A DNA stretch of 40,148 nucleotides from Bdellovibrio sp. (GCA_013360185.1 JABWCO010000015.1:1-40148), one strand, 5' to 3'; positions 33,043-40,108 are shown, counted from the stretch's first letter. Notes: generated from the sequence alone by a model not told the origin. Made by a program: numbers and translations.

Positions 33043-33759
33043 TTAGGTAATCTTCCCTGGGTAAACTTCCGACCAGGGAACTCGCACTTGCTCTGAAGGG
33101 TTTGTTTCGGAACGAAGAACTAAGTGTGTCCATTTAAGGTCCGTAATCGTTCCGGAAATCAATTCTTTTTCCGTTTGGATCTTTACCGTCTGGCCGATCT
33201 CTAAATGCAAAGACTGCAGTAAGCTCCAACCTAATACAATGTCCCGACTCACTGGAAATAGCGCCACATTGACGGAAATTAAAATAATAAAAAAAGACCA
33301 TGAACTTAAAAAGGCCACGGGTAGATATTCAGTTCCATACAAAGTTAATGCCCATACGACCACAAAAATACCCAAAACATTCTTCCAGCGTTGTCGAAGA
33401 GCGGAGGGCCAATTAGGGAAAAGGGTCTTACTTTCAAAACAGAGACTACCAATCGCATAGATATGGCGAAAAACTAGCAGAATAAAAAATAACTTTAAGA
33501 AATAAGTGAACAGGGGATTCCCATAAATGGGAGCCGGAATGTTGTTCGAGAAACTCAGTAACAGGGTACTCAGGATGATAGCATCTAAATGCCATCCTGC
33601 TTTTTTAAAGGCCTCGATCTTTCGCAAGGTGGACCATGAGAACCAGATCAGTTGGCGCAGAACCAAAGTCCCCACCACCGCAAAAAGCAAACTGACAATC
33701 CATTCCGTCCACGGCCCTGGAGTCAAACCTAGATAAATCACAATCGCTGGTCCCAACAT
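33043..33759 (-). CDS. Membrane protein with MscS-like beta domain
   Basis: Several TM helices followed by LEIGQTVKIQTEKELISGTITDLKWTHLVLRSETNPSEQVRVPWSEV, resembling the MscS beta domain. Confidence 0.6.
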   Translation of the reverse strand: MLGPAIVIYLGLTPGPWTEWIVSLLFAVVGTLVLRQLIWFSWSTLRKIEAFKKAGWHLDAIILSTLLLSFSNNIPAPIYGNPLFTYFLKLFFILLVFRHIYAIGSLCFESKTLFPNWPSALRQRWKNVLGIFVVVWALTLYGTEYLPVAFLSSWSFFIILISVNVALFPVSRDIVLGWSLLQSLHLEIGQTVKIQTEKELISGTITDLKWTHLVLRSETNPSEQVRVPWSEVYPGKIT

Positions 33760-33782: not shown

Positions 33783-34721
33783 TTATAAATCACAAATGGG
33801 TGCAGAGTAGGAAAGAATGATCAAACCGGCGTTGCCGCCTTTTCCTGGGCCCCCACCTTGCCCCGCTAACGGTGACAACGAAGGCGTTGTCGGCGCCCAG
33901 TTATTGGCGCCGAGTCCTTTCGATCCTGTAGGCAGCCCATCGCTTCCACTGGACCCGCCACTCGAAGTAGAACCATTGGAGTTCCCGCCACCACCGCTAC
34001 CGAATCCGCCGCCGCCACCAGCATAGTAGCTACCAGCACATGGGGTCCCCTGACTCCCCCCGGTCAAGGAACTGCCTCCCGCGCCACCAATGTAAAAGCT
34101 GCCGCAAGTAGATGTCCCATTACCGCCACTAAAGGACGCTCCTGATGTTGCGGGACTTGCTCCGCTATTACCTGCGCTACCTCCAGAATTAGTTCCTCCG
34201 CCACCACCTGTTGATAGTCCACCACCGCCGCCTCCAAAGTATCCAGCGCCGCCACCGCCACCATAATGATTGCCACCGTCAGAGATGCCAGCACCTCCAC
34301 CCCCACCAACATAGGCCGCAAAGGTCTGTCCGGCGAGGATGGTGAACGTTCCATTCTTCTGAATTCCCGCACTGCCAGCCGCAGATGAACCGCCACCGCC
34401 TCCACCACTGGCGACGATGGGTGTTCCAGCAACAACAAGGGCAGAGCTCCCGCCCCCACCGCCTCCACCTGCAGCAGCACCGCCCCCACCGCCTCCGCCG
34501 CCAGCCATAATATAAGCCACTGTGAGGTTACGAGATGCCGTAATGGATTTTGTGGTAGGAATGATAGATACACAATTAAAGTTCGTGGGGTTAGAAGTCG
34601 TACCCGCCCCAGTGCTCACTTTTCGCCAAGTCGGGGCGCCATAGGACACGGAACTTAGTCCAAACCCCAAACTAAAGACAAGCAGACTGGATATTTTAAA
34701 AGTTTTAATTAAGGCAGACAT
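33783..34721 (-). CDS. Secreted glycine-rich protein (putative fibre-tip/adhesin-like)
   Basis: ATG at 34721 with RBS GGAGG; signal peptide; multiple poly-Gly runs and C-terminal GQGGGPGKGGNAGLIILSYS, similar to phage-type glycine-rich tail-fibre domains. Confidence 0.75.
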   Translation of the reverse strand: MSALIKTFKISSLLVFSLGFGLSSVSYGAPTWRKVSTGAGTTSNPTNFNCVSIIPTTKSITASRNLTVAYIMAGGGGGGGGAAAGGGGGGGSSALVVAGTPIVASGGGGGGSSAAGSAGIQKNGTFTILAGQTFAAYVGGGGGAGISDGGNHYGGGGGAGYFGGGGGGLSTGGGGGTNSGGSAGNSGASPATSGASFSGGNGTSTCGSFYIGGAGGSSLTGGSQGTPCAGSYYAGGGGGFGSGGGGNSNGSTSSGGSSGSDGLPTGSKGLGANNWAPTTPSLSPLAGQGGGPGKGGNAGLIILSYSAPICDL

Positions 34722-37596
34722 ATAGATTTCCTCCTTCATCCACGGTGAGAGCTCCGACTCCTAAGGTTGAGCACACGGATCCTTCAAGTTGAGTTGGTAC
34801 GTCATCACAAACTAACAAATCGCCATCGACATTAGTTGCTAATTGGCCGATGGTTGTACAAGCCGTCCCCAGTGTCGCCAACAACGTCACGGGGGATTGA
34901 ATCCCGCCCGCGGCTCCTGAGGCAGAGATTGTCAGCGCTCCGTCTGAAGGGCTTAGCGAAATCCCCGAACCCGCCACTAGAGTTTTATATTCGATAGAGG
35001 AGCCGGCATTGTTGACACTTAAAAATTGATGGGAAGATCCTATGGCAGTGAGTCCCGTCCCCCCTTTGGAAACAGGAACGGTATTCAACGTCACTGCTGT
35101 AGAACCTGCCGTGGACGTTACATCCCCACTCAAAGCTGGCATCCTCGCCGCACTTATGGTTCCTGTTGAACCACTATTAAAGGTGCTCCAATCCGCCGAG
35201 GATAAATATCCATCCGTTGTCGCATTCGCTTTAGACAGGGAAATATTCGGGGTTGTGCCTCCACTTGAAGTGAGCGGCGCCGTCGCCGTTACACTTGTCA
35301 CAGTTCCAGAGCTCATGTTTGCACAAACCCAGCCTGTTCCAGGAGTGTAACTTAACGTCTGACCGCTGGAACAAGCGACATTGTTCGGGCGGTAGTCGAA
35401 GTATTTTGTTGCCGCGTTCGTGATCTTATCGATCGTTGTCGTGATATTAAGTAAAGCAGAGCCATCCACATTTGGTAATTTGCTGGTACCGTCCAATTTG
35501 ACGATTTGATTAGGCCCCGTACCTGAATTCAAAGTGAGCACCGGAGCGGTTGTTCCGTTGGCCACATCAATATCTGCGTTGGCAGAAGAAACACCGCCAA
35601 TGCCACCAGCACTTGCTTCAGCCAACGGCTCCCAAGCAGTACCACTGTCACGATAAATCTTTTTCGTATCACCGGCGATATATAGACGTCCTGGTATCCC
35701 GAAGGCTGGCTTCGCCAGATCGTCCCCAGTTTCAATACTAGGAGTATTGCCCGCGTTTTGAATCGCGCCCACAATTCGCGCATCGTCACCTGCAGCAACT
35801 GTCCCCACACCGGTTCCTATGTTCCGAGTCGATGCATTACCTAATCCTAAATTAGTTCGAGCAGTGGCGGAGTTCGCCACATCACTGAGGTTGTTGGCAG
35901 GATTAAGTGGCGTAAAGCCCAAAGCGGCTTGTTTACTATTGAAGGTATTCCAATCTGTTGACGTAATATATCCATCTGTCGTCGAGTTTGCTTGTGACAT
36001 GCGAATATCCAGACCACTCACACTTAATGGAGCTGCCAAACCTAATCCCGCATAGGTGTTAGACCCGGTTTTTTGCAAAATTCCCAGCGTCGCTAAACCC
36101 GCTAACGCCGTCAATTCTGAATTTGCTGCCTGCTTCCCGTTAAAGGTATTCCAATCCGCCGAAGATAAATATCCATCCGTTGTCGCATTTGCTTTAGACA
36201 CGGAAATATTCGGGGTCGAGCCTCCACTTGAGGTGAGCGGCGCCGTCGCCGTCACATCAGTAACGGTGCCACCACCGGCCGCCACAGTATCCCAAACCAA
36301 CTGAGCGTTATCCCCTGTCACACTTGCTATTTTTAAAACTTGGTTGGCAGTCCCAATGGATAGTGGCATGGTCAACGTGTATCGATCACCGCTGGTCATA
36401 GAATTAGAGGCGGTGATTCCAACATAGTCCGGCCCCACTCCCCCGTTGTTATAAAGAAAAAGACGATTGGCAGTAATATCCTTAGTCGTTTGGATATTGT
36501 TTGTCGTCGAGATGGCTCCCGAGGTCGAGATGCTGGCCGTATTACTTAATCCGCTCGCCAGGACTCCTGTTAGTTTTGAACCATCAAGGGCTGGCAGTTT
36601 CCCGTCAGAACCTATTTGCACAATCTGATTTGCTCCCGTACCGACATCGACAGATAACTCACCAGAGGTCGTGATCGCAGCATTACCCGCTTGATCCGTC
36701 TTTAAACCAAGTCCGGCCGCTACACTGGTCATCGTCGCCGCATTTCCGGCAGGCAAATTGATACAGTCAAAGCCACTGCCGTCACCTTTTGGTTTCAAGT
36801 ATTGATTAGCGCCACAACTTGGAAGATCTGATTTGGCAAAGGACTTCACACTGGGATCTGATTCTGAAGTCAGGGGCGTGTACTTGGTCCAAGCACCACC
36901 GCTCCAGCGCAAAGCTTCCCCATTTGCAAGACCTGCTGGTAAAGCGCCACCCGCAAGCTCTCCCGTTTTTGTATACTGGGAAGTAGTTCCATTGAGAACT
37001 TTTAGTAACTCTACAAAGTTTCCGGCAGTCAACGCCGTGGGAGTTGTGCCGTCGACTCTTAAGTACTGCGCAGCAGCCGTGCCACCTAAATTTTGTGCAT
37101 CATAGGAGTTCACGGAAAATGGAACAAAGTTAATATCCATGTTGGGAAGAGTTTGGACACCATTCGCACTATTATTATCTTTAAACGAAACCACCAACTG
37201 ACGTTGATCCAGGACCTGCGGCGTAAATACGTTGCCGCCACTATTGCAGTTGAATTTTGGATATTTACTGACATTGAACTGAAAATTAGGATCGTTGGAA
37301 AAAACTTTTTCTATGGAAATATTGGGATCGCTATTAGATCTGGCGCCGTTACCATCCCCAATCGGAATAACAAAAATCCCATCCGTACCCACCATCGAAA
37401 TAGTCCGTACTTCTTCGTACATCAAACACTTTCCAGGATTCGGACTTAATATCTGAATTTTAAAAGTAACACTGCTACTTTCCAGGGGGCTCCCCGTATT
37501 GTCTAAAATACGGCCATGATACGTAATAACCGCCCCGGCGTGGGCCCACGAGGATATAAATAAACTTATCAAAAGAAAAAACGTACTGCATTTCAC
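34705..37596 (-). CDS. Repeat-rich fibre protein, candidate mosaic adhesive trimer (MAT)-like/tail-fibre-like surface protein
   Basis: GTG at 37596 with AAGGAG upstream; signal peptide VKCSTFFLLISLFISSWAHA; repeats TSSGGSTPNISVSKANATTDGYLSSADWNTFNGKQ and variants, typical of phage and Bdellovibrio fibre proteins. Confidence 0.75.
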   Translation of the reverse strand: MKCSTFFLLISLFISSWAHAGAVITYHGRILDNTGSPLESSSVTFKIQILSPNPGKCLMYEEVRTISMVGTDGIFVIPIGDGNGARSNSDPNISIEKVFSNDPNFQFNVSKYPKFNCNSGGNVFTPQVLDQRQLVVSFKDNNSANGVQTLPNMDINFVPFSVNSYDAQNLGGTAAAQYLRVDGTTPTALTAGNFVELLKVLNGTTSQYTKTGELAGGALPAGLANGEALRWSGGAWTKYTPLTSESDPSVKSFAKSDLPSCGANQYLKPKGDGSGFDCINLPAGNAATMTSVAAGLGLKTDQAGNAAITTSGELSVDVGTGANQIVQIGSDGKLPALDGSKLTGVLASGLSNTASISTSGAISTTNNIQTTKDITANRLFLYNNGGVGPDYVGITASNSMTSGDRYTLTMPLSIGTANQVLKIASVTGDNAQLVWDTVAAGGGTVTDVTATAPLTSSGGSTPNISVSKANATTDGYLSSADWNTFNGKQAANSELTALAGLATLGILQKTGSNTYAGLGLAAPLSVSGLDIRMSQANSTTDGYITSTDWNTFNSKQAALGFTPLNPANNLSDVANSATARTNLGLGNASTRNIGTGVGTVAAGDDARIVGAIQNAGNTPSIETGDDLAKPAFGIPGRLYIAGDTKKIYRDSGTAWEPLAEASAGGIGGVSSANADIDVANGTTAPVLTLNSGTGPNQIVKLDGTSKLPNVDGSALLNITTTIDKITNAATKYFDYRPNNVACSSGQTLSYTPGTGWVCANMSSGTVTSVTATAPLTSSGGTTPNISLSKANATTDGYLSSADWSTFNSGSTGTISAARMPALSGDVTSTAGSTAVTLNTVPVSKGGTGLTAIGSSHQFLSVNNAGSSIEYKTLVAGSGISLSPSDGALTISASGAAGGIQSPVTLLATLGTACTTIGQLATNVDGDLLVCDDVPTQLEGSVCSTLGVGALTVDEGGNLYVCLN
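35181..36265 (-). repeat. In-frame direct repeats inside the fibre gene (copies at about 35181-35305, 35943-35990 partial, 36144-36265)
   Basis: Near-identical ~120-bp copies offset by 963 bp (321 codons), plus a diverged partial copy offset by 201 bp (67 codons). Confidence 0.8.
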
Positions 37597-37600
37597 TGAG

Positions 37601-37900
37601 CTACTCCTTTTTAAAGAGTGTGGACTGAACTCCGGATTCGGCCCGATACCCATCTAATGTCGTTGTCTTCTTACCCCCGGAATGAAAATTGACGGAAGAC
37701 TGCACAAAATATCCGTCAGTCGTAACCACGTTCTGATTACTTGCAGGAAGAATTTCTTTATTAGACATCTTCGTTTGAAGCACTTCGTCTATCGCCGACT
37801 GCAAAGTATCAATAGAGGCATCCATGGAACATCCCACAGAACCAAGACAAATTACCAATGTGATTGTCAGTGTCTTAAAAAGAGTCATTTCTCTAACCAT
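37601..37900 (-). CDS. Small putative lipoprotein
   Basis: Start near MVREMTLFKTLTITLVICLGSVGC; lipobox GSVGC; stop directly precedes the fibre-gene start. Confidence 0.6.
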   Translation of the reverse strand: MVREMTLFKTLTITLVICLGSVGCSMDASIDTLQSAIDEVLQTKMSNKEILPASNQNVVTTDGYFVQSSVNFHSGGKKTTTLDGYRAESGVQSTLFKKE

Positions 37901-38236
37901 ACTCCCGTGCAACAACTTTAAGGGCGCACCCCACTGACGTTTCGGAATCTGCAAGCCGATCCTTAAGGAATCTTCACAAAATGCGCTCCCAAATCCCCCC
38001 TCCGAGGAGCATCTACATTTCCCTGTTGATTCGACTACCTACACTGCGAATAAAAAATGAATCAGACGGATGGGAGCAATTTTTCAAAAACAGGCATAAA
38101 TAATATCTTTTTTTAATCCGTTATATGTTTGCAGGTGTTGTGGCCGTCGGATGAATCCGTGAGCCAAAATGAAACATACAGACCGCCAAATGGATTTGGG
38201 TTTGTAGAAACCACTCTAAAGGAATATTCTCAATAT

Positions 38237-40108
38237 ATGGGGAAACTAAAAATCAATTCACGCGTTGTTCAACGAGCCTCGTTTGTCGGTGTTCCTATTC
38301 TATTGAGTTTACTCTTCTTTCAAAATTGCCAACCAGGATTTCAAGCCTTGGACTCGCACTCATTTTTAAGTGCAAGCTCTTCATCCTTGGAATTTACCAA
38401 TAGCTCAAATGCCGATGATCGCAGTCAACTGTGTCACCGCTGGGTGAACGGAAATGATCAGAATGGAGTTCCCACATGGGGACCGCCCATTGGTAATTGC
38501 GACAACAAATCCTTGCCCCTTCTTTTTAGTGTGACTCACGAAAATGAATGCAATACGCATATGCCGTGCAAGGGATACTCCTATGACCTCAACTACAAGG
38601 ACAATATTCTTGCCTACATGGCAGACTATGATCCGAAAGATATCGGTCAGTGGATAAAATATTCGGCTGTAGGTAACTCCACAGCAAACCAAATCGAATT
38701 CGCTCTGGATACCATCAACTATGCCAACAACAAGTCCCCCACAGGACGACCCGTTTCAAATGGATATATCTTTTTTGGGATGGCCAATCTTGAGTTTAAC
38801 GGAAAAGTTAATCTCAATGAAGAACTCTGGGTGGAGTTTGAGTACAATGTCGCCGCCTCCGAAACCGGGGACCCGATAAAAGCCGGTAATCGCTTAATGC
38901 TTGCCGCCGCTCTCAACTGGGATGAACCCGGAAGAGCCAATAAAGCCCACTATTTTGAGGTCAATCTTTATAAAACTAAGGACTATCACAAAGCGCACTT
39001 CGATATTAATCAGTGTACCAAGGACGCGAATTACGATCACTGCTACTATGACTCAAATGGAAAATGGGCTGAAGGAAAATATATTTCTGCGGCCATGGCA
39101 TTTGGCGAACCGGGGCCCACGGTGCCTGATGGTCAATGGCGCAAAGTACGGATAGATCTTTTTAAACTGGCAAAAAAATTTCAATGGTTCCATCCACCAA
39201 GTGATTGGAGCCAAGCGAAAACAGATGGACTCTATATAGGCTTAGAATCCAAGGACCTTTCTCGTATTTACGCAAAAATACGCAATCTTCGCATCTGGAA
39301 AGGTTCAACTCCGCCATCACCTTCCGAAACTCCTATCGCTGTAAATGGAGGATGGTCTTCTTGGAATGACCAAGGTTCCTGCTCAAAAAGTTGTGGCGGT
39401 GGCCTGATCACTCAATTTCGCACTTGCACAAATCCGGCTCCGGCCAATGGTGGTGCATCTTGTACTGGAGCCTCCACACAACAGGTGGCCTGCAATACGA
39501 TGGCCTGCCCAACAAATCAAGGCCCGCTCCCGGTCAATGGGGGATGGTCTGCTTGGAAAGATCAAGGTTCCTGCTCAAAAAGTTGTGGCGGTGGCTTGAT
39601 CACTCAAATTCGCACTTGCACAAATCCGGCTCCGGCCAACGGAGGCGCATCTTGTTCTGGAGCCTCCAGCCAACAGGTGGCTTGCAATACGATGGCCTGC
39701 CCAACAAACTCAAACAACAACATAAGTACTATAAACTCGACAACTCATCCCATCGGTCTATTCCGAGATGGGTACAGTGGATTTAAAAGTAACGGAGTCA
39801 GTTACTGCGTGTTTAATAGCGGTTCAGACATGATCGCCAGTGGTTACTCTCAGGCGGACTATGATAGTGCTCGGCAAATCACTCAAAGTAAAATTACCTT
39901 GCCCTTTGCCGGAGCCTGCTCCGACACAACAAGAATGGGAATCCTACGCCAAGGCTCTGCGGGACTAATACGTCACCAAAATGGATTCTGTGTCCTGGCG
40001 TCTGGCGAACATTTGCAGAAGTGTGGATATCGCCAACAGGACTATGATACAGCTCCGCAAGGAAATATTGGGGATCTGGCTAACTTGCCTTTGTGCCCAT
40101 GCGAATGA
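38237..40108 (+). CDS. Lipoprotein with lectin/lyase-like beta domain, two thrombospondin type-1 repeats and a duplicated C-terminal module
   Basis: ATG at 38237 (AAAGGA upstream); signal with FFQNC; two copies of NGGWSxWxDQGSCSKSCGGGLITQxRTCTNPAPANGGASCxGASxQQVACNTMACP. Confidence 0.8.
   Translation: MGKLKINSRVVQRASFVGVPILLSLLFFQNCQPGFQALDSHSFLSASSSSLEFTNSSNADDRSQLCHRWVNGNDQNGVPTWGPPIGNCDNKSLPLLFSVTHENECNTHMPCKGYSYDLNYKDNILAYMADYDPKDIGQWIKYSAVGNSTANQIEFALDTINYANNKSPTGRPVSNGYIFFGMANLEFNGKVNLNEELWVEFEYNVAASETGDPIKAGNRLMLAAALNWDEPGRANKAHYFEVNLYKTKDYHKAHFDINQCTKDANYDHCYYDSNGKWAEGKYISAAMAFGEPGPTVPDGQWRKVRIDLFKLAKKFQWFHPPSDWSQAKTDGLYIGLESKDLSRIYAKIRNLRIWKGSTPPSPSETPIAVNGGWSSWNDQGSCSKSCGGGLITQFRTCTNPAPANGGASCTGASTQQVACNTMACPTNQGPLPVNGGWSAWKDQGSCSKSCGGGLITQIRTCTNPAPANGGASCSGASSQQVACNTMACPTNSNNNISTINSTTHPIGLFRDGYSGFKSNGVSYCVFNSGSDMIASGYSQADYDSARQITQSKITLPFAGACSDTTRMGILRQGSAGLIRHQNGFCVLASGEHLQKCGYRQQDYDTAPQGNIGDLANLPLCPCE
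39341..39710 (+). repeat. Tandem TSP1-encoding direct repeat (192-bp offset)
   Basis: Two nearly identical ~175-bp units starting at about 39341 and 39533; offset 192 bp = 64 codons, in frame. Confidence 0.9.

Follow-up and report, generated by a model that had tools for sequence, protein, structure and literature searches.

Three consecutive genes in the genome of Bdellovibrio sp. (GCA_013360185.1) encode a small putative lipoprotein, a fibre of the mosaic adhesive trimer (MAT) family, and a secreted glycine-rich protein. They occupy positions 33783 to 37900 of JABWCO010000015.1:1-40148, the 40,148-nucleotide stretch of DNA that was analysed as a whole and is here called the window. We consider it fairly probable that this trio forms an operon with coupled translation and encodes a single surface fibre, in which the lipoprotein would serve as the anchor, the MAT as the shaft, and the glycine-rich protein as the cap. 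The MAT family itself was already known; the three-part genetic arrangement was found described nowhere. Its recurrence in relatives suggests a cassette that supplies a membrane anchor dedicated to the fibre and sometimes also an exchangeable, separately made tip that touches the prey. All three open reading frames lie on the minus strand and are transcribed from 37900 toward 33783 in the order lipoprotein, fibre, glycine-rich protein:

37601 to 37900, minus strand: small lipoprotein gene (99 residues, or 95 residues from an ATG at 37888)
37604 to 37609, minus strand: AAGGAG ribosome-binding site of the fibre gene (read 37609-37604), overlapping the final lipoprotein codons
34705 to 37596, minus strand: MAT-family fibre gene (GTG start at 37596, stop at 34705; 963 residues including the signal peptide)
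37051 to 37572, minus strand: conserved MAT N-terminal domain (profile match to NF053851, Bdello_MAT_N)
35162 to 36209, minus strand: shaft region with three ATTDGYLSSADWNTFN-type repeats, like those of phage tail fibres
34705 to 34782, minus strand: fibre C-terminal end GSVCSTLGVGALTVDEGGNLYVCLN (the C..G.GA..D..GN...C end), a proposed tip-docking element
33783 to 34721, minus strand: gene for the secreted glycine-rich protein (312 residues; ATG at 34721, stop at 33783), a proposed separate fibre tip
34617 to 34637, minus strand: APTWRKV at the mature N-terminus of the glycine-rich protein, a proposed docking peptide

The consecutive, same-strand layout with a 17-bp overlap described in the sequence-only reading was confirmed for all three reading frames. 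The fibre and glycine-rich genes share positions 34705-34721, and the start that produces this overlap appears to be the right one, because an AAGGAGG ribosome-binding site inside the fibre gene (34736-34730) precedes the ATG at 34721; an in-frame upstream ATG at 34739 is less likely. Each of the two downstream genes has its ribosome-binding site within the gene ahead of it, the fibre gene in the final lipoprotein codons and the glycine-rich gene in the fibre gene, which makes translational coupling along the whole trio probable. A scan for promoters and terminators returned signals below the level of shuffled sequence and was uninformative.

The middle gene is a MAT fibre. Its product matches NCBIfam NF053851 at 5.6e-35 (120 bits; cut-off, 60) and has the features of the family, namely, an N-terminal domain after a signal peptide (ending in SSWAHA) and a repetitive, phage-like shaft with a variable C-terminus. 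The ATTDGYLSSADWNTFN unit occurs in three copies (35162-35246, 35924-36008, and 36125-36209), and these repeats share 47 to 65% identity with phage tail fibres across about 60 residues, so that the earlier description of the repeats as phage-fibre and MAT type holds. The S74 domain is not among the family matches of the fibre, which places it in the non-S74 group of MATs. The family was described in 2024 as trimeric and surface displayed, with a conserved N-terminal domain and variable tips and with 21 members in HD100 (Caulton et al., PMC10769870); the surface element bound by the N-terminal domain was still awaiting identification according to that study. MATs are present in 59 of the 61 genomes of the taxonomic family. 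The window's own genome has 12 MAT loci, several of them cut at contig ends. A scan of genome contigs with MAT class-A motifs retrieved 2 loci only. The N-terminal domains split into sequence classes, including GAVITYHGRILD, QHKGISFQA, SYQGR, and others. A relative's genome, G003, which we take to be that of HD100, contains 21 MATs. Three of them (L082, L134, and L136, of 843, 627, and 922 residues) agree with Bd2734, Bd2740, and Bd3182 of PMC10769870.

Judged from its sequence and genomic association, the small lipoprotein is the best candidate for the surface anchor of the MAT. Translation may equally well start at the in-frame ATG at 37888, and in that form Cys20 comes after CLGSVG. The lipobox is weak in the window protein (SVGC) and good in other homologues (LSAC, LSSC); the cysteine at the signal peptide end is invariant in the 7 homologues of the same genome, giving the signal peptide and lipobox cysteine expected of lipoproteins. 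The mature part of the window protein starts with CSMDASID and ends with two tandem TTxGYxVQSSV repeats, and CSxDASI, a linker, and two short repeats in tandem are common to the mature sequences of the family. Comparison of the window protein with Pfam, PHROG, and NCBIfam yielded no meaningful match.

In the window's own genome, 7 of 7 homologues of the lipoprotein lie directly upstream of MATs. Other genomes of the family contributed 61 homologues: the next gene is a MAT for 40 of them, and a MAT follows 23 of the 29 strongest; the chance that a random gene precedes a MAT is about 0.3%, as estimated from some 12 MATs among roughly 3,600 genes. A gene beginning VDVRRNIT follows another 8 of the 61, and neither type was scored for 13; of these 13, L055 lies ahead of a MAT whose N-terminal frame is disrupted, and L072 lies ahead of a VDVRRNIT-like gene missed by the automatic pattern. 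In the presumed HD100 genome a lipoprotein gene precedes 6 of the 21 MATs, among them the three that match Bd2734, Bd2740, and Bd3182; the last of these (L136) has a longer CSDASPEV lipoprotein ahead of it. The majority MAT class in that genome has no upstream lipoprotein, and one homologue stands directly behind a pair of that class (L123). A separate observation concerns lipoprotein relatives at L065, L071, L076, L078, L083, L089, and L123, which are found ahead of a secreted family beginning (V/I)VDVRRNITL...KDFYI; the one member of this family that was tested had no Pfam match.

The classes of the lipoprotein match those of the MAT N-terminal domain. A Mantel test on 47 pairs gave a Spearman r of 0.73 (permutation mean, 0; standard deviation, 0.03; 0 of 5000). 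Mere species relatedness is ruled out by shuffling among paralogues within a genome (mean, 0.13; standard deviation, 0.07; 0 of 5000 reaching the observed r) and by the use of within-genome distances only (r = 0.58; 1 of 5000). In these data the mature sequence of L136 is a mis-set fragment of the longer CSDASPEV lipoprotein. At two loci the lipoprotein and the MAT are in one frame with a TAA between them, and a single chain consisting of the lipoprotein, the stop read as glycine, and the MAT N-terminal domain was folded with 22 aligned sequences. The predicted template modelling score (pTM) was 0.56, and the predicted local distance difference test score (pLDDT) was about 90 or above for parts of the MAT core and 76 to 89 for the second lipoprotein repeat, the first part being disordered. 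One long lipoprotein strand (64-76) requires a pairing partner, which, as the model weakly suggests, could be the first strand of the MAT (100-111).

Adjacency and covariation would also fit a co-transcribed helper in assembly or export, such as one that guides the MAT across the outer membrane, and the machinery that exports MATs was not identified in the literature searched. We regard a helper as unlikely, though as the most serious of the alternatives, because the small size, lipid anchor, and two short beta repeats suit a scaffold better than a machine; the scores of the second repeat in the read-through chain lend some weak support to a folded contact as well. The anchor role proposed in the sequence-only reading gains from the conserved adjacency and the covariation, and it is a role that we infer. 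In a search of open-licence literature, supplements excluded, none of the papers found mentioned the lipoprotein, and the main text of PMC10769870 mentions neither lipoprotein nor glycine nor operon. The lipoprotein family and the variable slot behind MATs, filled by the glycine-rich gene in the window, appear undescribed.

The gene at the other end of the trio seems to fill a variable slot behind MATs and not to be a one-off. The trio and variants of it recur in relatives, and the co-occurrence of fibre and glycine-rich genes across relatives, which the sequence-only reading had put forward for checking, was found. The window's glycine-rich protein has its own signal peptide and a mature part that is 34% glycine, with 9 runs of at least four glycines; 2000 shuffles gave 2.4 such runs on average and never more than 7. 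The run count is compatible with a polyglycine-II sandwich fold. It had no meaningful match in Pfam, PHROG, or NCBIfam and no PDB relative by sequence search. Paralogues in the same genome follow MATs at L029, L024, and L021 (at L021 two more precede the MAT), and one, at L031, lies at a distance from any MAT. The L029 paralogue matches PF21722 (Gly_rich_2) at 5.9e-9, separate and fused relatives match it too, and the window protein aligns with them. A profile search with the glycine-rich alignment at 1e-8 retrieved proteins of the same genome only, probably through composition-bias correction, and the search with PF21722 worked better.

Occupancy of the slot follows the type of MAT end. In a survey of 110 MATs, those ending in C..G.GA..D..GN...C, as in the window, had a secreted glycine-rich gene next in 4 of the 4 cases in which the sequence ran on far enough to show one. 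Behind a second end type, HTIYSF..G..VYVSW, a secreted protein is usually encoded, often by an overlapping gene; the partners are NHL propellers (L044, L081), RCC1 propellers (L080, L139), LamG lectins (L049, L161), a DUF7483 protein (L028), glycine-rich proteins (L024, L113), and a small protein without a named family (L152). At L081, in the presumed HD100 genome, the MAT has 1959 residues and the NHL propeller 711. When the ends are picked by fixed regular expressions, a secreted gene lies within 70 bp of 11 of the 15 MATs selected and of 10 of the 73 others (Fisher p = 9e-6), and with ends assigned by eye added, 14 of 17 versus 8 of 71 have a secreted neighbour; the end classes were framed after inspection of the data, which makes the p-values optimistic and takes away from this line of support. 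The strongest evidence that the glycine-rich domain serves as a MAT tip is natural fusion: PF21722 forms the C-terminus of four MATs (L046, L102, L104, and L105; 1e-10 to 3e-26), and PF21722 proteins encoded on their own also come immediately after MATs (L103 twice, L113, and L117), other copies being unlinked or otherwise fused. The detachable tip of the sequence-only reading is supported by these fusions and by the co-occurrence with a specific end, and the capping itself stays conjectural. Two further observations were made in the survey. At L131 (presumed HD100, 2492500-2500500), an S74-type MAT is followed 4 bp on by a secreted protein with Fibrinogen_C domains, a possible extra partner type, and at L106 and L112, proteins that begin like type IV prepilins end in Gly_rich_2, which suggests glycine-rich tips on pili too.

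It is improbable that the three genes are neighbours only since adhesin genes gather and recombine, each product acting alone and the glycine-rich protein being a free secreted adhesin or matrix protein. Glycine-rich relatives are indeed also solitary (L031, L107, L109, L110, L111) or fused to pilin-like or lipoprotein signals (L106, L112, L108), but same-strand adjacency, overlapping or within about 60 bp, is tied to the MAT end type, natural fusions exist, and the subclasses of lipoprotein and MAT match. That the glycine-rich protein is a fibre assembly factor (chaperone), as T4 gp38 is for gp37, and not part of the finished fibre is very doubtful, for although a position right behind the fibre gene with an overlap is also typical of fibre chaperones and S74 chaperone domains end other MATs (PMC10769870), four MATs carry the glycine-rich domain as a permanent C-terminus, and proteins in the same slot have lectin-like or propeller adhesion domains, nearly all with export signals.

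Several points weigh against a single anchored and capped fibre. Physical contact, surface location, and prey binding are inferred, and covariation of linked genes can stem from joint inheritance without contact. Some lipoprotein homologues are solitary or upstream of a non-MAT gene, and 15 of the 21 MATs of the presumed HD100 genome are without a lipoprotein directly upstream. Some MATs with the HTIYSF end have no partner (L051, L067). The window's glycine-rich protein does not match PF21722 at an E value of 0.1, and its AlphaFold model (pLDDT, 47; below 40 in the glycine-rich half) is too poor to judge a polyglycine core. Foldseek with this model gave a best E value of 0.12, with TNF/C1q-like folds among the top matches, which are not significant.

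Candidate docking peptides were found on the partner proteins. The motif xWKK[VI], to which APTWRKV of the window protein belongs, is present at the mature N-terminus of the separate glycine-rich proteins of the window's genome, except that of L024, which follows the HTIYSF end type, and is missing from the fused versions. The paralogues that share it with the window protein stand behind MATs of the same end type. A loose WKK pattern is noise; with a tighter pattern, the glycine-rich family makes up 6 of 8 matches in the same genome. Two HTIYSF-end partners (L113, L152) begin with IPF-type motifs, and a DNA pattern for [IML]PFxFWK gave 37 matches across 61 genomes, 15 of them in one genome, versus 4 in the reversed control. 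Right after signal peptides, this motif precedes unrelated domains (glycine-rich, RCC1, C-type lectin-like, propeller, and immunoglobulin-like, by eye) in the secreted proteins L169, L173-L175, L177, and L183-L191 (G032 and relatives) and L107 and L109-L111. The matches are mostly away from MATs, and several in other genomes are clearly due to chance. [IML]PFxFWK looks like a docking peptide on interchangeable tips, and we offer it as a lead only.

If the trio does encode one fibre, the lipoprotein would reside in the outer membrane and hold the MAT trimer by its N-terminal domain, the MAT would end in a docking element rather than in a lectin or S74 tip, and the glycine-rich protein, exported separately, would cap the fibre via its N-terminal xWKK segment and offer its glycine-rich surface to prey. 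More tentatively, MATs in general might be modular three-part devices with class-specific lipoprotein anchors, some fibres having standard sockets for separately encoded, interchangeable tips with N-terminal plugs (xWKK; [IL]PFxFWK); because some tips are encoded far from any fibre, one predator could conceivably swap tips in trans. PMC10769870 poses the question of how a predator keeps dozens of recognition fibres on its surface, and the covarying lipoprotein beside MAT genes, apparently including those of the crystallised Bd2734, Bd2740, and Bd3182, is a concrete anchor candidate. A separate tip slot, if true, would explain fast diversification of prey recognition, as in phages.

The trio is flanked on one side by genes for glycine--tRNA ligase and a resistance-nodulation-division (RND) pump and on the other by a divergent gene for a thrombospondin-repeat protein. 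A prophage origin was considered and rejected, as the surrounding genes (glycine--tRNA ligase, RND pump) are ordinary chromosomal ones. The adjoining divergent gene (38129-40108) encodes two thrombospondin type-1 domains in a probable lipoprotein or secreted protein and is another candidate adhesin. Downstream of the glycine-rich gene, 33043-33759 encodes a membrane protein that resembles an MscS-type channel by eye and has a borderline DUF2642 match (1.5e-4) just below the cut-off.

The window's fibre resembles the MATs of Bdellovibrio bacteriovorus (PMC10769870) in its signal peptide, conserved N-terminal domain, phage-like shaft, and variable C-terminus. Each of those MATs is one polypeptide that includes its own tip (S74, beta-sandwich, TNF-like, or C-type lectin), whereas in the window the proposed tip has its own gene and a lipoprotein partner is encoded upstream. 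Among the PF21722 proteins, the paralogue from the same genome and the relatives match the profile, and the window protein alone does not. Homology to phage gp38 was rejected, there being no Pfam, PHROG, NCBIfam, or PDB match, and tblastn of the glycine-rich protein against phages gave no match in a search limited by the low-complexity filter. The gp37-gp38 analogy drawn in the sequence-only reading accordingly survives in gene order and in the sense of "works like" but not as membership in the gp38 family. The gp38 of Salmonella phage S16 caps a trimeric fibre with a polyglycine sandwich of 10 glycine-rich motifs, docked via tryptophan residues (PMC6851490). As in S16 gp37-gp38 (PDB 6F45), the window has a separate glycine-rich gene after the fibre gene, encoding a proposed cap, with 9 glycine runs and a conserved N-terminal tryptophan against the 10 motifs and tryptophan docking of gp38. 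The anchored fibre would work much as gp37-gp38 does, the distal fibre that S16-type phages build from two parts, and would have a bacterial anchor as well at the opposite end. Unlike S16 gp38, the window protein is bacterial and exported with a signal peptide, and other partner folds occupy the same slot.

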